A DNA stretch of 64,000 bases. Origin: Moniliella sp. 'wahieum'. Taxonomy: Eukaryota; Basidiomycota; Moniliellomycetes; Moniliellales; Moniliellaceae. Shown piece by piece: positions 14,938-61,669 of this stretch. Each line of letters begins with the position of its first letter. Position 1 is the first letter of the stretch. The notes under the pieces are model-generated. The model saw only the letters and a program-made list of their open reading frames with translations, searched no databases and was not told the origin of the DNA. The stretch is from the NCBI GenBank assembly GCA_003971905.1, contig RSEE01000001.1, forward strand, positions 1,426,001-1,490,000, written 5' to 3'. A program made the translations under genes and the position numbers.

Positions 14938-15900
14938 GCCTAGCATCGCTTTAGCGTAGCTTAGCTTCAATTAGGTTCGGAGAACCCGTTATTGAAGTTG
15001 TCTCCCATCCTGTCCGTGCCCATAATCTAATGATCAGTGCCCATATCAGCTAGGCTCTTCCTTCGTGGGCTGGAGGGGGAGTCGCGAATGGTTGCTTGAA
15101 GGAGCCGCCAGCGTATTTGTAGTGATGTAGGAAAAGCACACACCTTCATGCCACAGGCACAGCCGTACCACCTTTTCACCCCCAATTGACCCCATTGCCC
15201 CCTCCCTCAGCAGCCCAGGAAGGAAGGAATGCAGCAATAGGGGTGGCTTCTGTGTGACCTGTTCCCAGTTCTCCCGTGCTCAGTTGCTGCCTCGGTTCCT
15301 AGTAGAAAGCTTGGCACTATTAACACTACGTGAGGAGCGTACGAGCTGGAAGCGGGGCATGTAGTGAATGCGAAGCCAAAAAACGACAACGACAGGACTC
15401 GAACCTGTGCAGGCAAAGCCTAATTGATATCAGATCACGCATGAACCATTCGAATCAATCCCCTTAACCGCTCGGGCACGTTGCCTTGTAGTAACAACGT
15501 GTGTCTATTGTATACATAATCAAAATCCGATTATCTGGCACAACGCTGTAACAGTGTACGCTATGACATGTTAACCCCCTCCCACACAAGAATACTTTCT
15601 TCTCCCTGCTCTATCCTGTACGCAACAAATGGACCCAAACAGATATAAAAAATAATTCCATGCGTGTTCCAAACCTCCTCGCGCCAGATGCACACCGAAA
15701 GCGAGAATCCTACAGGTAAAATCGAGCAAGATGGGGATAACAGGGGCGGGGGGGGGGGGCATGTGCCCCTATAGTTGGGCAGGAGAAGCAAACGGGAGTC
15801 AAATCAAAACAAGGCCAGGACAGCCAAGGAGGCAAAAAATGAACCCAAGGGGAAAGGAGAGGAGCACAACAGGTATGGAGGAAACCAAACGGAAAATGGC
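14938..15900. other. Intergenic region containing tRNA-Ser
   Basis: Apart from the tRNA at 15384-15485 nothing is supported. A run of ten or more G (about 15748-15758) and a purine-rich stretch precede the end of the PSD gene. Confidence 0.5.
15384..15485 (-). tRNA. tRNA-Ser(CGA) with a 20-nt intron
   Basis: On the minus strand a 7-bp acceptor stem (GGCAACG with CGTTGTC, one G-U pair), discriminator G, D-arm CCC...GGG, anticodon stem ATTGA/TCAAT, variable arm AGGC/GCCT and T-arm ACAGG/CCTGT fold into a class II tRNA. The anticodon CGA occupies positions 34-36 (genomic 15450-15452) and decodes UCG. An intron of about 20 nt follows base 37 (15429-15448). The B-box is GGTTCGAGTCC. A T6 run just downstream (15378-15383) is the expected Pol III terminator. 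CCA is not encoded. Confidence 0.92.
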
Positions 15901-41702: not shown

Positions 41703-41793
41703 GGCGAGATAGCGAAGTGGTTAACGCGCTGTGTTCAGGATAATTTCCTAACCGCAGTCCTCCGGGGCGTGGGTTCGAATCCCACTCTCGTCA
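41703..41793 (+). tRNA. tRNA-Leu(CAG) with a 12-nt intron
   Basis: Acceptor stem GGCGAGA/TCTCGTC (one G-U pair), discriminator A, D-stem GCG/CGC, anticodon stem CTGTG/CGCAG, a class II variable arm and T-arm GTGGG/CCCAC. The anticodon CAG sits at 41736-41738. Base 37 is G, and the intron of about 12 nt is 41740-41751. The B-box GGTTCGAATCC and a downstream T5 run (41796-41800) support Pol III transcription. CCA is not encoded. Confidence 0.92.
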
Positions 41794-50799: not shown

Positions 50800-51926
50800 C
50801 TAGAGCAGCTTTTTGACCTCGACAATCTTGGGGTAGCGGTCCTCCATTTCCTTAGTGATGCAGGGGAAGGGGAGGAGCCGTTGATGCCCTTGGGGAGGAA
50901 CGAGGAAGCTCTCGTTGCCGGTAGCCAGCGTGCCGTCGGCGAGCTGACCGCGAATGAATTGGCCATGGGCATGCCACGTCAACCCGCGAATGGCATCTTG
51001 GATGCGGATGAGACCGCGCTTGGGCCCAGGGATCTGGCCCATGAGGTAAATCAAGTTCTCCTCCGTGTCGACACGCAACACGCGCACATTGTGAAGGTGC
51101 GCTTCTTGCCGCCCATCCGGCGGGCATCTTCTTGAGCGGCATCACACGCGACGGCGTGGCATCGAACAATCGAACCGGGACGACGGTGCCAGAGCGAGGT
51201 ACCGTGGGTATTGGGACCACCACCAAAGCCATGGCGCTTCACCACACCCTGGAAACCTTTGCCCTTGGACTTGCCCACCACATCCACTTTTTGCCTGGCA
51301 CAAATTGCAGCACAGAGAGCTTGGTTCCCTTGGGCACAAGTCCATCGCGAGACACGCGGAACAACGCGCACGGCCCTGAGCTTGCGCTGCTTGGTCTTTG
51401 GAAGCGTATCAAACGGAACCGTGCCGGCATACACCATCAGACCCAGGTACGGCCGGGCGACTGCGCATACGATGCACGCGGGCCCGGCGGAAGTTGGTCT
51501 TGAGCCTTGAACTTGGCCGGGTTGAACCAACGGGTACGGAATCACCTGGTTGTTCAGGCAGTGCACCACCGTGCACGGCACACGGTCGCCGTTGGGAAGA
51601 AAGTGGACACCATGCCCACCTTGAACCGAGCAGGCCGACGCGCTGCGCAAGCGGATGCCACGGCGCGCTGCACCGTCGTAGGCAGCTCGGGCATCTGCTC
51701 GTTCATCGTCAGCGCTCGATGTCGAGCGGCGGAAGAGTGAGTTCGGCGCCATTGAAGGCAACATTGACGGGGGCGGCGGGAGAGGGAGGGGGGGCAGCCG
51801 GGCAGCGGGAGTGGCGGCGGCAGGCGCAGGGGCCGAGGCGATGGAGGTGGTGGCGACCGAGCGCGGAGGCCCCGCGGGTGGCGCGGGAGGCGCGGCGGTG
51901 ATGGTGCGGGCGAGCGACTGGCGCAT
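50800..51926 (-). CDS. Mitochondrial large-subunit ribosomal protein uL3m
   Basis: The N-terminus [20 protein letters not shown] is Ser/Arg/Ala-rich without acidic residues, as in a mitochondrial presequence. The L3 fold follows: [57 protein letters not shown] (the universal L3 signature) and, after a frame break, [33 protein letters not shown]. The C-terminal extension ends KIVEVKKLL at 50800. The orthologue in yeast is MRPL9. It is divergent from the CK2 beta gene, 393 bp away. Confidence 0.93.
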
Positions 51927-55769: not shown

Positions 55770-56487
55770 GCTGGGCAGGGAGGCAGCAAAAGCGACGCGG
55801 GAGGGGCAAAGAGGTGGTTGGTCGAGCGTCGTAGCCGGGCGACGGCCAGCCCATGCGGGAGGCGGGCGGCGGAAAAAGGCGAAAAGCGAAGAAATTGCGC
55901 AGGCACCGCGCCACTCTCGCCTGCGGCCTCTGTTTCCATCGGGCCAAACCCTAACGCGCAGCGGCAGCAGCCGCACGCAGCACCACGCAGCACCACGCCA
56001 GCCACCGCGGCCCAGCCGCAGGGCACCGCACCAGCCCAGCAGCCGCCCGCCTTTCCTCGCCTCGTCTCGCTGCTCTACGCTAAAGGGTGGGCGACTGACT
56101 GCACCGCTATGTCGTCCACAACAGGCGCTCGAACCATGGAGTGTGTATTTCTGGCGCGATAGGGTATGGGAAGGGGGAGCTTAAACAGAAAAAACGAGGC
56201 TGCACGCACGCACACACACACCACCACCATATCATCATCGCTCTCCTCTCCGACAGCGAGTGTGCATACGCGCCCAAAAAACGTCTGTGGGGAGATGTGT
56301 CTCCCCCTCGAGTCAACATCGTAACAGGTAACGGCGGGGCGCCCAGGGCCCCCACTCGCTGGAGGTGAGGAACACCCATAGGAGTCATAGCGTCGTCAAT
56401 ACAGGATCGACCATATATCCAAGGTAGCCCTACACCTTTGGGTGACTAGCTTCTCGCCACCCTCAATGAAAAGAACATGCGAGGTTG
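55770..56487. other. Intergenic gap upstream of eIF3e
   Basis: No supported gene. It contains CAGCACCACGCAGCACCACG direct repeats (about 55978-55997) and a (CA)n-like ACACACACACCACCACC tract (56208-56226). Confidence 0.45.
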
Positions 56488-57501
56488 CTAATACGCGGCG
56501 GCACCATTCCCCACAACCGGAGGGGGAGCGTACGGTTGCTGTGCATAGGAGAACTCTCCCTGCGCGTTGACGGGAGCGCACCATTGTACTGTGCCTCCAC
56601 ATTGTCCCCGACGTCGTGTCGGATCCAAGCGTCTGGCGGCGCGGACCCTTTCTCATAGTCCACATAGCCGTCGCCTTCCACGTTGAGATGTAACGGTGGC
56701 GTGCATCCCAAAAGTCGGCAACGTGGCTGAAGAAGTAGACAAACAGGATAAAGGCCACGGTAAATTCGCACCCGGCCGCAGCATTGACGTAGGAGCTGCA
56801 ATTGGCGTGCTTGGTGGAGAATCGATCGCCATCGCAATGCTCATACACACACCGAACGCAATTGCGACCGCAATGGCAACCACTAGGATGGAGACCTTGA
56901 CAGAGGCGATGATGAAAAGGGTTTTGAACACCTTCTTGCTTGTGCCCTGGTGCGATGCCGCCAGCGAGTAATCTCACAGCACTGGAAAAACACGCCGAGG
57001 AGATGCCGACGATGAAGACGACGGTGCAACTCCAATCTGGGTAGGTGGACCAAAATGTCGGCCAATTCGTGTCAGTAATTGCAAACGAAACTGGGCGGCA
57101 AAGGAAATGGGAAAACGTACGAGTGGTTGAATGATGGAAAGCATCATAAATGGAGAGGAAAATCAAGCCAAAGCACCCGAGCCAGGTGAACAAAACGCAT
57201 GCCCAGTCGTAATAGGTGGAGATAATGCGGACGGATCCGGGAATACGACGGCGGTGACGCAAATAACGCTCGACGAGAATGGTGATCATGTACATGCCGG
57301 CGGTGGAGATTGAGAGACCTTCAAATGTAGCATGGTTTGCCGCCCCCATATCACTGAGGAAGGGGGGCATAGGTTCCTTGGGCTTGTAGCGGGGATGGCC
57401 GCATGGGCCCACAAACCTAGCATAGCGACCAGGTCGGCGAACCAAAGAAGAGCAGTAATTACTGGGAGGACCCAGTAATCCGTGTAGAGGGCGTACTTCA
57501 T
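56488..57501 (-). CDS. Frag1/DRAM/Sfk1-family multispan membrane protein
   Basis: It starts MKYALYTDYWVLPVITALLW, FADLVAMLGLWAHA, then across a frame break GHPRYKPKEPMPPFLSDMGA, ANHATFEGLSISTAGMYMI, and membrane helices DWACVLFTWLGCFGLIFLSI, SCTVVFIVGISSACFSSAV, TLFIIASVKVSILVVAIAVA and AAGCEFTVAFILFVYFFSHV with HVADFWDARHRY. The helix order and the SD.G....ER..F start, plus a C-terminal (C)E...DFWD block, fit Frag1/DRAM/Sfk1 proteins (six helices; PI4-kinase anchoring or autophagy in characterised members). The last frame ends YAQQPYAPPPVVGNGAAAY. A GTACGT...CCCAG stretch of 30 bp near 57090-57119 is too short to be a convincing intron. Confidence 0.75.
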
Positions 57502-59816
57502 GGCTGGGAGTCTAGTGATGGTTAGACAGGAAGAGGGGTTGAACGTTGATGGAGGTAGTCCGTTCAGCGTCGAATGGATTGCAAAGCTGAGTTGTGCTGA
57601 GTCCAGGCTGAGCGCTGAGTCGGGTCAAGCAGGGTGCATGCTCAGGCTGAGCGCAAGGTTCTTCTCGTCGTTGCCGTGAGGGAGATTTTTATACGGTGAC
57701 GAACGGCAGATCGCCTAGGATGTCTGCCTTACAAGAGTTGGGGTGGGGTGGCCTTGATGAGGAAGGAGGGGGGATAGGAAGGAACTGGGGAGGGAGGGGT
57801 AGGCAATATAAAAGCAAATGGCTACTCCATGTTCACCGAATCTGACTGAAATGTGTGAGACAAGCCAGAGACAGGTGCCGTCGACGTCACGCGAGTAATG
57901 GATGCACGGGGTCACTGTCCTGGCAACAAGGCGTCGTAATGCTGTGTTTTTTTCTGTCGCAAATGTGGGCTGCAGAAATCGTTGACATCATCGACTTGCT
58001 GATGCTCATTCGAATCTCTTCAAGCTTCAAGCTTCAGGCGCTGGAGAGGGCCTCAGGGGCCTCGGGCCTAAGGGCCCGAGGCCCAGGGCGCGCTCAGGCG
58101 CGCAGGCCTCGCGCCTGTGCCGCCTCCGGCGCGGAGGCTGTATCGATCATCAGGTGCATCAGGCCTCAGGTGCATGATCGAGGGTCCATGACACGAATGA
58201 TACTCGCTCGACCTGTTCGTTACGCGCGTTAACCATGTCACGCACCAACGTTCAACGTTCGAAGTGCAACGTTGACATGTTGACGTGTTGACCAACGAAT
58301 GACGTGTGGCAACCGGCAAACATTGACCCCGGTGACCTCACCTTTTTTATTCACCGACGACGTTCACATGCATGCGTTCGCCGCGCAGTCGGTCAGATTC
58401 GGAGCGTGTGTGCATGTGAGCGCATGTGAGCCACGGGAGCTGCCAGGTTTTACAGTGCCCTGAGGCCGCCAGAGGAAAGGGTTGCTGCTTGCGGCAGTAC
58501 TGTGCTCTCTCCCCGTAATGCAGGACTCCACCTCTCACCTCGATCTCACATCTCGTCCCCTCAAGCGGGGGGGTGCTGCGACACGCCTTCGATGAGCCTG
58601 CTCTCTGAGATCAGACTCCACTCCTCCACCATATCCCGCGACCAGGACATCTTTGGGGAGCTAGACTAAACGTTAGGCTCGTTAAGCACCACCAGGCTCC
58701 AAGGGCCAATGGCCCACATCGTCATCAGTCATCGGCATCGCCGATCCCGTCGACCTCAAAACCTCACAGGCCCTTATCGACCTCATCGATTCAATCGGCC
58801 TCATTAGGCATTGCCTCCAAGGTGCAACACGGTCGTCGGTTTGGTATGATGCATGATGCATGATGTCAGATGTGGGATACGAATGTGATTGGGCAACTAG
58901 ACAAGCCACTCGTACTCGCGCGCGGACTCTGGCAGTACTCCCGGCGCTTTCTGTGTTTTCCCTTCATCTCCATCCCGGCCACCACCTCTTCCTCTCTTGG
59001 CTCTCTTCTTGGACTTGATGCGTATACGCGCGAAGCAGACTGTCTCGCGGAGACTAGTCGACTAAGTGTCTCGACAGTCGTTTCCCATAAATCGCTCCCC
59101 TCCCAGATCCCATTATTCATTGAACACATTCGTCCCACTCGTTCATGATCCTGTGCTCAAGTTTCAAGCGCGCCGTCCCCTGAGACTGAGGATGTGATGC
59201 ATGATGCTCGACACGTGATGCATGGTCATGTAGACCATTATGCATTTGCGTTGCTACCCAGTACCCATCGATCGTCATCGCGCGCGCGCGTCATCGAAAG
59301 AAAACCCCTAGGGCCTAGCTAGCTGTCTCGTCTCGGGATAAACGAGCGGAACCAGCAAAGCGAGTTTCCTCATCCACCCTGGAACGCGCTGGCCAGGCAG
59401 GCTGATGGCCGACCGTGGCGACAATGCTGGCGGTCCGGGGCGCCGCCGGAGCCGGCGGTCGAGACTTTTTTTGCTTATGTTGGGCTCCCAGCGAGCGCGT
59501 CCCCAGCCTTCCCCAGCATCGAGCAAGTCGGAGCGCGGTCCCGCCGGGAGGAGAGACAGAGCGACCTGGGCACACTGGCGCCGTGCATGTGCCCGAATGC
59601 GGCTTTACCGGAGCTGGGCTTGCTGCTCTCTCCGGGCAAATCCGCTGGGGCGTGCGTGGGAGCGGCAGGTATATAGGTGCGCCACTGGGCACTTTAGGCT
59701 ACCCGCTACGCCGCCAAGGTGGTACGTGCGCGTGTGAGATGACAGTAGTTTAAGTTGGCCGCCTTCCCTTTTAGAACCGCTCTTCTCAGACTCATCTTCA
59801 TTCCCCCGTCTCTACC
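57502..59816. other. Large palindrome-rich intergenic region (2.3 kb)
   Basis: No supported gene; the ORF at 59308-59692 (minus) is low-complexity. It contains the densest concentration of self-complementary words in the window (57585-58300), TGATGCAT clusters at 58845-58869 and 59191-59230, a (CG)n run at 59278-59291, and a TATA-like GGTATATAGG (59667) about 150 bp before the carnitine acetyltransferase start. Confidence 0.5.
57585..58300. repeat. Island of consecutive short inverted repeats
   Basis: GCTGAG/CTCAGC words (57591-57652) are followed by AAGCTTCAAGCTTCAGG (58020), a perfect 12-bp inverted repeat with arm GGGCCTCGGGCC at 58057-58068 and its complement at 58073-58084, AGGCGCG/CGCGCCT (58096-58116), GCCTCC/GGAGGC (58122-58138), CATCAGGTGCATCAGG (58148) and repeated AACGTT/GTTGAC words (58240-58300). 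Confidence 0.85.
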
Positions 59817-61669
59817 ATGGTCACTAACGCCGATATGTTCCACCGTGCCCCGGGGGTCTCTCTGCCCCCTGGTCCGCTCTTCGAGCGCAATCCACTCTGC
59901 CCCACTGCCCGTTCCGCCGCTTGCTCAGACGCTGGAGCGCTACCTCGAAAGCACCACCCCCTTCACCACCACTCCTGAGCAGCGTGCCTTGACAGCCGAA
60001 GCGATCGAGAGTGCCAAGACGGGCAAGGACAGTGCCCTGTTCAACAAGCTTCAAGAGCGGCTCGAGGCACGTGGCGGCCAGCTTGGATAGTTGGTTGTCC
60101 GACTGGTGGAACGAAGATGCTACTTTGGCTACCGCGACTCGCTCGTGCCCAACGTCAACTACTTTTACCACCACCAAAACGATCGCACGCGCACAACCAA
60201 TGTTTCGCGTGCTGCATCGCTTCTCAAGGGTTCCTCGCCTTCCGCCGCCTGGTAGAGGCCGGCACGCTTCACCCAGAAAAGACAAAGACTGGCGCTCTCT
60301 GTTCGGCATCGTACGAGTGGCTGTTCAACACGAGCCGCCTGCCTCACAAGCCCGTCGACTATGCGGAGAAGTACGACCCCAAGACGAACAACCACGTTGT
60401 TGTTGTTCGCAATGGAAAGTTCTTCACTTTCGACCTGGTTGATGCCTCTGGGGCCGAACTGAGCGATAAGGAGCTGCAAACCCAGCTCCAGCGCGTTTTG
60501 ACTCACCCGGATGCTCAAATCGAGGAGAAGTACCCCATTGGTGCGTTGACGGGGGAGAATCGGGACAAGTGGGCAGATGCCCGGGAGGCCATCCTTGTCG
60601 CCTCGCCGCAGAATGCCAAGTCCTTCGAGACCATCCATCGGCAGTGATTGTTGTGTGCCTCGATTCGCTTGCCCCGATTCTGACCAACGAGGTGGCATGG
60701 GAATTGTACTTTGGTCAGGGTGCCCGGAACCGTTTCTTCGACAAGCAGCAACTCGTCTTTGAGAATGGTGTGTCGGGGTACAATGGCGAACACTCGACCA
60801 TGGACGGCACACCCACACTGCGGATGAACGACTTTGTCCTGGCTGCATTGGCAAATGGTAAAGTCGACCTGGGCAAGTCGAACCGTCCGGCGAGTGAGCT
60901 GCCGGCGCCCCAAGCAGTTCCATTCGAGGTCAACGCAGCGGCGCAAGAGGCGATTCGTGGGGCATTGGGTGACTTTGATGATGTGATGCGCCATCACAGC
61001 TTGGAGGTAGTGCAGTTCCATGCATATGGCAAGGGCTTGATCAAAGCGTGCCGGACCTCCCCTGACGCTTGGGTCCAAATGGTGATCCAGCTGGCTACTA
61101 CAAACTGGCGGGCCGGCCATGCGGGACGTACGAATCGTGCCAGACACGCAAGTTTCTTCTTGGGCGCACCGAGGTCATCCGACTGCCTCGGCAGAGAGCA
61201 AGGCGTTCTGCGAAGCGATGGAGGACGCGTCCGTACCGGACGAGGTGACGGTGGCCAAGTTCCAAGAGGCGACCAAACGGCATTTGAAGTACGCCAGCTG
61301 GGCCTCCAATGCCCAAGGGTGGACCGCCACTTGTACGGCTTAAGAAACTGCTTGCCCCGGGGGAAGAACTTCCGGCGCTCTACAAGGACCCTACCTTTGC
61401 CACCTCCACCACGTGGACCATGGAAACTGTCCACCTCTCAGATCTCCTCCCCCCACCTGCCTGTTGGGGATTTGGCGAGGTGACGCCCAGCAGGCTTTGG
61501 AGTGGCATACGCCATCAAGGAGGGCTCTTTGACTTTTACTGTGATGAGCCGGGGCCCGCAAACCCAGCTCTTGGCGCACTACATCCAGGAGGCTGCATTG
61601 GACGTGCGTGACCTCCACGCTCGGGTGGCTGCCAAGGCAGCCAAGGCAGCCCAGAAGGCCAAGGCGTAA
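59817..61669 (+). CDS. Carnitine O-acetyltransferase
   Basis: It transfers acetyl groups between CoA and carnitine. The start MVTNADMFHRAPGVSLPPGP changes frame to VPPLAQTLERYLESTTPFTT, ALFNKLQERLEAR, DSWLSDWWNEDA. Then come LPHKPVDYAEKYDPKTNNHV, NGKFFTFDLVDASG, WADAREAILVASPQNAKSFE, LYFGQGARNRFFDKQQLVFE and SGYNGEHSTMDGTP, which holds the catalytic His of the choline/carnitine acyltransferase family. YGKGLIKACRTSPDAWVQM and, after breaks, IKEGSLTFTVMSRGPQTQLL close the fold; the C-terminus is Ala/Lys-rich (AAKAAKAAQKAKA). I see no clear mitochondrial presequence and no PTS1, so a cytosolic (Yat-like) location is inferred. There are five or more frame breaks and no evident intron. Confidence 0.92.

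Follow-up and report, generated by a model that had tools for sequence, protein, structure and literature searches.

The window, by which we mean the whole 64-kb stretch analysed (C1:1426001–1490000), contains an intergenic gap that adjoins a Frag1/DRAM/Sfk1-type gene (56396–57502, minus strand), and a carnitine acyltransferase exon lies at 60569–61483. At 51051–51926, on the minus strand, lies an exon for ribosomal protein uL3 of the organellar or bacterial type. The XPB protein encoded in the window has its best match in a chain named RAD25 (592 bits), which we take to be that of yeast, the next XPB chains scoring 515 bits; on this one protein the genome is probably fungal. A search for light-harvesting protein families, which would have pointed to a photosynthetic organism, had no hits. 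Two tRNA genes reach the Rfam gathering threshold (15384–15485 and 41703–41793), both of them long enough to hold introns; the ARAGORN call of a selenocysteine tRNA for 41703–41793 is probably wrong as the Rfam match there is to the general tRNA model. A second copy of the region, 94% identical, lies in reverse orientation on contig C76, and since four stretches of more than 1 kb align between C1 and C76 at 90–94% over about 87 kb the two contigs were treated as haplotypes (six stretches align altogether, the two shorter than 1 kb being left out of the indel counts). At the start of the Frag1-like gene (57480–57502) the haplotypes differ by a 2-bp and a 1-bp indel, with the reading frame kept.

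The hairpin-dense island

A sequence-only reading had placed in this gap an island of about 700 bp (57585–58300), dense in hairpins formed from unrelated palindromic words. The words are all present at the coordinates it gave and 58018–58300 is indeed hairpin-dense, with inverted repeats far denser than in dinucleotide-shuffled sequence, but 57585–58000 is not, its density being like that of the shuffles; the actual island measures about 280 bp. With arms of at least 7 and loops of up to 12, hairpins cover 0.247 of 58018–58300 compared with 0.010 in shuffles (0 of 200 as high). None of the 200 dinucleotide shuffles was as high at arms of at least 5, 6 or 8 either, and three were at arms of at least 4 with loops of at most 2. 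The folding-energy test named in the same reading gave z = −5.62 for this part (0 of 200 shuffles as low). Upstream, 57585–58000 holds no perfect hairpin with arms of at least 7 and a loop of up to 12; at arms of at least 6 its coverage is 0.029 compared with 0.020 (86 of 200 shuffles as high), its single-strand DNA folding gave z = +0.20 (53 of 100 shuffles), and its GCTGAG stretch consists mainly of direct repeats. When 5,760 windows from 294 kb (24 sequences, both haplotypes included) were ranked by hairpin density the focal one came first and the next distinct place was its allelic copy, although the sampled sequence makes up about 0.4% of the assembly and islands of this kind may well occur outside it. 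A search of the whole assembly (69.5 Mb, 223 contigs) with the 716 bp of the originally described interval gave matches in the window itself and in its counterpart on the other haplotype, two in all, with no sign of a dispersed repeat. Tandem Repeats Finder at score 50 listed no arrays in 57585–58300 and no RNA families were found in the island at the Rfam gathering threshold.

The first feature of the island is the array TCA-AGCT-TCA-AGCT-TCA (58020–58036, with the word AAGCTTCAAGCTT at 58022–58034), which is shorter by one 7-bp unit in the other haplotype. It is followed by a perfect, GC-rich 12-bp inverted repeat (58057–58084; arms 58057–58068 and 58073–58084, 4-nt loop TAAG), identical in both haplotypes, and by an 8-bp inverted repeat CAGGCGCG/CGCGCCTG with a loop of 7 (58095–58117), inside which the core C-A-GGCC-T-C lies at 58103–58110. 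The other haplotype is without the 7-bp stretch 58106–58112, the presence of which completes the 8-bp repeat, and this serves as an example of palindrome completion between haplotypes. Beyond it are a 7-bp inverted repeat GCCTCCG/CGGAGGC with a loop of 3 (58122–58138) and a nested imperfect palindrome with 8-bp outer arms (58143–58181) which holds TCA-GGCC-TCA at 58159–58168, the other haplotype having one further TCA-GGCC-TCA here. At 58246–58275 the AACGTT words belong to an ACGT-centred heptamer array, CAACGTTCAACGTTC, and its inverted counterpart, AACGTTGA. Outside the island a TGA-GCGC-TGA unit is found upstream (57609–57618), and downstream lie a site with additional GGCCTCAGG-type sequence in the other haplotype (58804–58816) and a TGA-TGCA-TGA-TGCA-TGA array (58847–58863).

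The T-X-A frame and its palindromic tetramers

Several of the words that had been called unrelated obey one rule: a triplet T-X-A is followed by a self-complementary tetramer and then by the same T-X-A (for example TCA-AGCT-TCA, TCA-GGCC-TCA and TGA-GCGC-TGA), the triplets serving as frame being TCA, TGA, TAA or TTA. The hairpins of 58057–58084 and 58122–58138 fall outside this rule. The statement that all repeat families of the window meet in the island is true in so far as the island brings together several members of a grammar found genome-wide, and in no further sense. The window has 38 TXA palindromic units, four of which start within 57585–58300; 15 lie inside and 23 outside long open frames, which cover 0.73 of the window and are a crude proxy for genes at this G+C.

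In 204 kb scanned for exact repeats at short lags, the commonest lags were 6 and 7 (70 and 71 arrays compared with 3.4 and 3.5 in Markov simulations), and 37 of the 71 lag-7 arrays contained a 6-bp palindrome where 0.18 would be expected. At lag 7 alone was the palindromic unit well beyond chance on good numbers; mild surpluses on small numbers were seen at lags 14 (6 of 17, 0.21 expected), 19 (3 of 12, 0.12 expected) and 25 (4 of 10, 0.19 expected), and at period 13 the palindromic cases were 2 of 86 (0.002 expected). Arrays of internal period 1–3 were dropped from the observed counts and kept in the simulations, which makes the comparison conservative. Palindromic lag-7 arrays occurred in nine of the 15 sequences sampled. 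The four bases between two copies of TCA are palindromic in 133 of 263 cases (15.4 expected), with 15 of the 16 palindromic tetramers in use (AGCT 25, TGCA 22, TCGA 13, CGCG 12, CTAG 11, and others), and those between two copies of TAA in 24 of 52 (3.1 expected). With X left free, TXA-n4-TXA gave 157 palindromic cases in 210 kb compared with 18.5 expected. The count covered 12 of the 16 flank classes that are possible, and the 11 besides TXA ranged from 0.7 to 1.5 times expectation in the same 210 kb (largest ratio 27 vs 18.5), among them AXT (7 vs 9.6), CXG (28 vs 22.8) and GXC (28 vs 28.1).

The periodicity of isolated units usually extends by two bases, on one side only. Counting matches of at least two bases, 45 of the 133 TCA units are extended upstream only, 37 downstream only, 33 on both sides and 18 on neither; the extension is of exactly two bases in 33 cases downstream and 27 upstream, and of three bases in 4 and 16 respectively. 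On a grid of repeat and filler lengths (the best 25 points with at least ten cases and a non-zero count, 19 of them given) the peak is at period 7 with a 5-nt repeat and a 2-nt inverted filler (5+2; 78 vs 32 expected). A second point at the same period, 4+3 (41 vs 21), could consist of decayed 5+2 units. The equivalent geometry has no surplus at period 5 (359 vs 380) or period 9 (2 vs 3), and weak surpluses are seen at period 8 with 4+4 (10 vs 4.8), period 9 with 7+2 (11 vs 5.4) and period 7 with 6+1 (84 vs 67). In the 5+2 set T prevails at position 1 (46 of 78) and A at position 3 (47 of 78), the other positions being mixed.

Over the whole genome, rule-obeying 17-mers of two units had 2,270 exact matches (AGCT, the array at 58020–58036), 639 (CTAG) and 188 (TAA with CGCG), and the same three words read backwards 0, 2 and 0; in these counts the two haplotypes are pooled and matches that overlap inside a longer array are each included. 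A non-palindromic word with the letters of a rule-obeying 17-mer matched three times, and a CXG-flanked palindromic word had no match, its own reversed control having five. Member words are dispersed, the first 100 places listed spanning contigs C1–C9 for one word and C1–C42 for another.

Differences between the haplotypes

Three sets of aligned sequences (C1/C76, L024/L026–L027 and L017/L033; 103,366 aligned columns) contain 1,603 indels. Lengths of 5, 6, 7, 8 and 9 bp occur 21, 16, 35, 14 and 17 times and lengths of 13, 14 and 15 bp 3, 11 and 6 times, so that 7-bp and 14-bp indels are over-represented, and palindromic units account for the greater part of the excess at 7 bp. Fourteen of the 35 7-bp indels create a unit at a site with no unit within 20 bp in the other allele; a direct repeat of at least five bases is present in 12 of the fourteen. 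Two further 7-bp indels extend an array and 19 do neither, and after equal removal at the neighbouring lengths these 19 compare with 14 of 6 bp and 12 of 8 bp. Among the 16 unit-making 7-bp indels, only six stand in flanks that are otherwise the same in both alleles for 20 bp on each side, and the long alleles are divided 8 and 8 between the sides compared. At 14 bp, three of the 11 indels are at sites without a unit in the other allele and three extend arrays. Units also differ at other indel lengths, in smaller proportions or with few cases (for example in 6 of 48 indels of 4 bp, 5 of 21 of 5 bp and 3 of 17 of 9 bp), and these are probably compound alignments.

The alleles take the form TXA-n1n2 versus TXA-n1n2-n2'n1'-TXA-n1n2, the latter seven bases longer, on either side and on either strand; n2'n1' is the reverse complement of n1n2, and the palindromic tetramer thus has a copy of TXA on either side. 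The pairs GGATTCAGGGAGG/GGATTCAGGCCTCAGGGAGG and AGTAGTCACCCC/AGTAGTCACCGGTCACCCC are typical. One such unit difference was also found between copies of a repeat family, where L017:4825 has TGATGCATGATG and L034 has TGATG. Between C1 and C76 mismatches amount to 0.032 in ungapped units, 0.035 in their flanks and 0.026 over all aligned bases. In the same pair of contigs, counted from both sides, 68 of 159 units are broken up by an indel on the opposite haplotype, and among the 91 ungapped units the tetramer is unchanged in 75, no longer palindromic in 12 and turned into another palindrome in four. These four are two loci, each counted from both sides, and could reflect constraint, conversion or misaligned mosaic arrays.

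Repeats of other kinds were noted in the aligned sequences. L024:7224–7480 is a 257-bp solo-LTR-like insertion with TG...CA ends and a 4-bp GTCT target duplication, lacking in the other haplotype, with dozens of similar copies among the genome matches listed. A 3.1-kb repeat family (L017:4589–7778) is 82–86% identical between its closest copies, and a repeat of about 235 bp (L017:4842–5076) that overlaps it has many copies near 81%.

Origin of the units and comparison with known systems

For a palindrome to form, two positions would normally have to change in concert. In this genome a single step appears to give rise to palindromic tetramers of many kinds, in a fixed frame, with long and short alleles coexisting in one individual, and on comparison of the sequences the haplotype differences suggest that palindromic repeats are still being written. 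We favour the view that the units are products of a palindrome-writing mutational process, genome-wide and apparently still active, and the island is probably a local pile-up of such self-templated insertion products together with some other hairpins. Both a palindrome-generating mutational process and a replication, boundary or centromere element had been proposed from the sequence. The former is well supported by haplotype indels that create or remove palindromic units and by the divergence of units like their flanks, and the latter finds no support in the dispersed lag-7 arrays and member words, the ordinary gene neighbours and a sequence in which no constraint is seen.

The allelic change would be an insertion. 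The main reason for inferring gain is that loss alone would not yield a standing excess, but with two haplotypes and no outgroup a deletion between 5-bp repeats would give the same picture. During synthesis a 3' end finishing ...m2m1TXA may fray and then fold back, with its last A pairing with the T two bases earlier and X as the loop (or TXA as a triloop). The polymerase would copy m1 and m2 on the folded-back end, the 7-nt mini-hairpin m2m1-TXA-m1'm2' would stay looped out, and the 3' end would return to the original template at m2, where synthesis would resume. As the regenerated end again reads TXA the cycle could repeat and give arrays, and slippage could later lengthen or shorten these. 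Fold-back of this kind would account for the size of 7, the free X, the free n1n2, the use of both sides, the 7n sizes and the neutral decay; it leaves unexplained why T.N.A works rather than A.N.T or C.N.G and why exactly two bases are copied, and its one-base loop is strained. More tentatively, and with some doubt on our part, there may be a dedicated sequence-specific writer, in the form of a polymerase or an end-processing enzyme, which would recognise T-N-A and repeatedly add exactly seven self-templated bases. If so, palindromic DNA would be made de novo across the genome with a signature of indel peaks at 7 and 14 and an inverted 2-nt filler.

The main rival to fold-back is break-end processing, the fit of which to the geometry is nearly as good. 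A nuclease or transposase would cut TNA with a 4–5-nt stagger, and one end would be sealed as a hairpin, reopened 2–3 nt off centre (giving P nucleotides), filled in and joined; the outcome would be a 4–5-bp duplication with 2–3 nt of inverted filler, and slippage would later grow the arrays. The 5+2 and 4+3 geometry fits this, TNA reads alike on either strand, a symmetry that would suit a dimeric enzyme, and both sides are used about equally. P nucleotides usually vary in length, whereas the filler here is nearly fixed; moreover, two steps would be needed for the 3 of 11 14-bp differences at which the other allele is free of units, and the one polymorphic element examined, with its 4-bp GTCT duplication, gave no instance of a transposon that duplicates a TNA-type target. 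On balance we think this route unlikely. Duplication by topoisomerase II, which yields short direct duplications, was rejected as these are without inverted filler.

There is rather little to be said for microsatellite slippage combined with general short-range template switching, in which the palindromic TNA heptamer would be the stablest slipped intermediate. Such a combination is consistent with the excess of hairpins that do not touch heptamer cores (25 with arms of at least 9, compared with 11.2 ± 2.3 in six simulations) and with the indels of at least 5 bp between C1 and C76, which make inverted repeats of at least 7 bp in 15 of 132 cases (0.114 vs 0.027 for shuffled inserts), part of these being the same heptamers; a heptamer excess is also reported from bacteria (PMC4692102). 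It does not account for the concentration of the palindrome excess at period 7 and TXA flanks, nor for the 14 of 16 unit-making 7-bp indels without a unit in the other allele. It is very improbable that a selected element is involved, whether as palindromic heptamers bound by a protein or as an island acting as boundary, origin or centromere: units are more often outside long open frames than expected (23, with 15 inside), the island sits in a gene-flanking gap and two loci have palindrome-to-palindrome changes, but fifteen different tetramers are used, divergence in units equals that of the flanks with 68 of 159 units indel-interrupted, and the units are dispersed over many contigs. A sequencing or assembly artefact can practically be dismissed, for the tetramer is kept on the other haplotype's contig in 75 of 91 ungapped units, exact copies of member words number hundreds to thousands, and the island is present on the second contig at 94% identity.

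A palindrome-writing process of the kind we favour would offer a natural system for studying how fold-back synthesis makes inverted repeats and how tandem repeats arise without a prior repeat, and its indel signature is easy to seek in any phased genome or mutation-accumulation experiment. It also carries a warning that dense palindromic islands and restriction-site-like words in genomes of this type can be mutational products and not binding sites.

Among known systems, the P-nucleotide footprints of transposon excision and V(D)J joining combine a target duplication with inverted filler; the heptamer units differ in their nearly fixed filler and tandem arrays, and the single polymorphic element examined does not match them. 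As in microsatellites, variation is by whole units (the 7- and 14-bp peaks), and arrays are extended in 2 of 16 7-bp and 3 of 6 14-bp unit-making indels. No description of the TXA/palindromic-tetramer grammar with its 7/14 indel signature was found in the open-access literature searched, though this does not establish that none has been published. The 'palindromic microsatellites' of Fusarium mitochondria are, from what could be seen of that report, A/T runs and unrelated (PMC7218506). The heptameric simple repeats of bacteria share the period of 7, the intergenic position and a length variable between relatives, and polymerase contact size is the hypothesis cited for their over-representation; they are G-rich words such as GGGAATC, and the accessible part of that paper makes no mention of palindromic tetramers framed by TXA (PMC4692102). 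Arrays of (AAGCTTC)n occur in at least 120 stretches of Pseudomonas and scattered other bacteria (L036–L155) and are possibly the result of a related process. In these loci (937 kb), chosen for that one member word, palindromic tetramers other than AGCT lie between TXA in 28 of 566 cases, which is no excess, and the general TXA grammar was not seen. In the 60 of these contexts that were listed, the bacterial units often run on with variants such as AAGCTGC. Thirteen viral contigs with a CTAG array likewise showed no excess of palindromic tetramers outside CTAG (16 of 272); four of them (L159, L162, L164 and L168) have one identical CTAG heptamer array and share the listed flanks.

The closest likenesses are with systems in which a strand end copies itself or its neighbourhood. 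Pol theta starts stem-loop extension from two terminal base pairs, and as in the fold-back proposed here a 3' end copies itself on minimal pairing and resumes elsewhere; its products are varied, and the available portion of the source describes no fixed 7-nt unit or TNA rule (PMC11292364). Short-range template switches in great apes give perfect inverted repeats through an inverted templated insertion (PMC7954356), and in our material too a reverse-complement copy of adjacent sequence differs between haplotypes. Their copied fragments are variable with a median of 12 nt, as far as that account was accessible (PMC7954356), whereas the heptamer units have a filler of 2–3 nt, one dominant size and one target triplet. 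Small inverted triplications (DUP/INV/DUP), reported from yeast rad27 and FEN1-mutated cancers, have the same direct-inverted-direct order as the long alleles (TXA-n1n2 / n2'n1'(T) / (T)XA-n1n2) and likewise need two template switches per event, and a hairpin-based route has been proposed for their loss (PMC13334657). According to the sections of that report to hand, their flanking duplications start from 7 bp (median 148 bp), with an inverted part of median 160 bp, a spacer of 30 bp, 6-bp junctions and a low frequency (PMC13334657), whereas the heptamer units have an inverted part of 2–3 nt, zero spacer, a gain of seven bases at TNA and hundreds to thousands of copies per word. The heptamer process works like a minimal triplication or template switch but lies outside the sizes published for small inverted triplications, and its grammar may represent a distinct mutational process.
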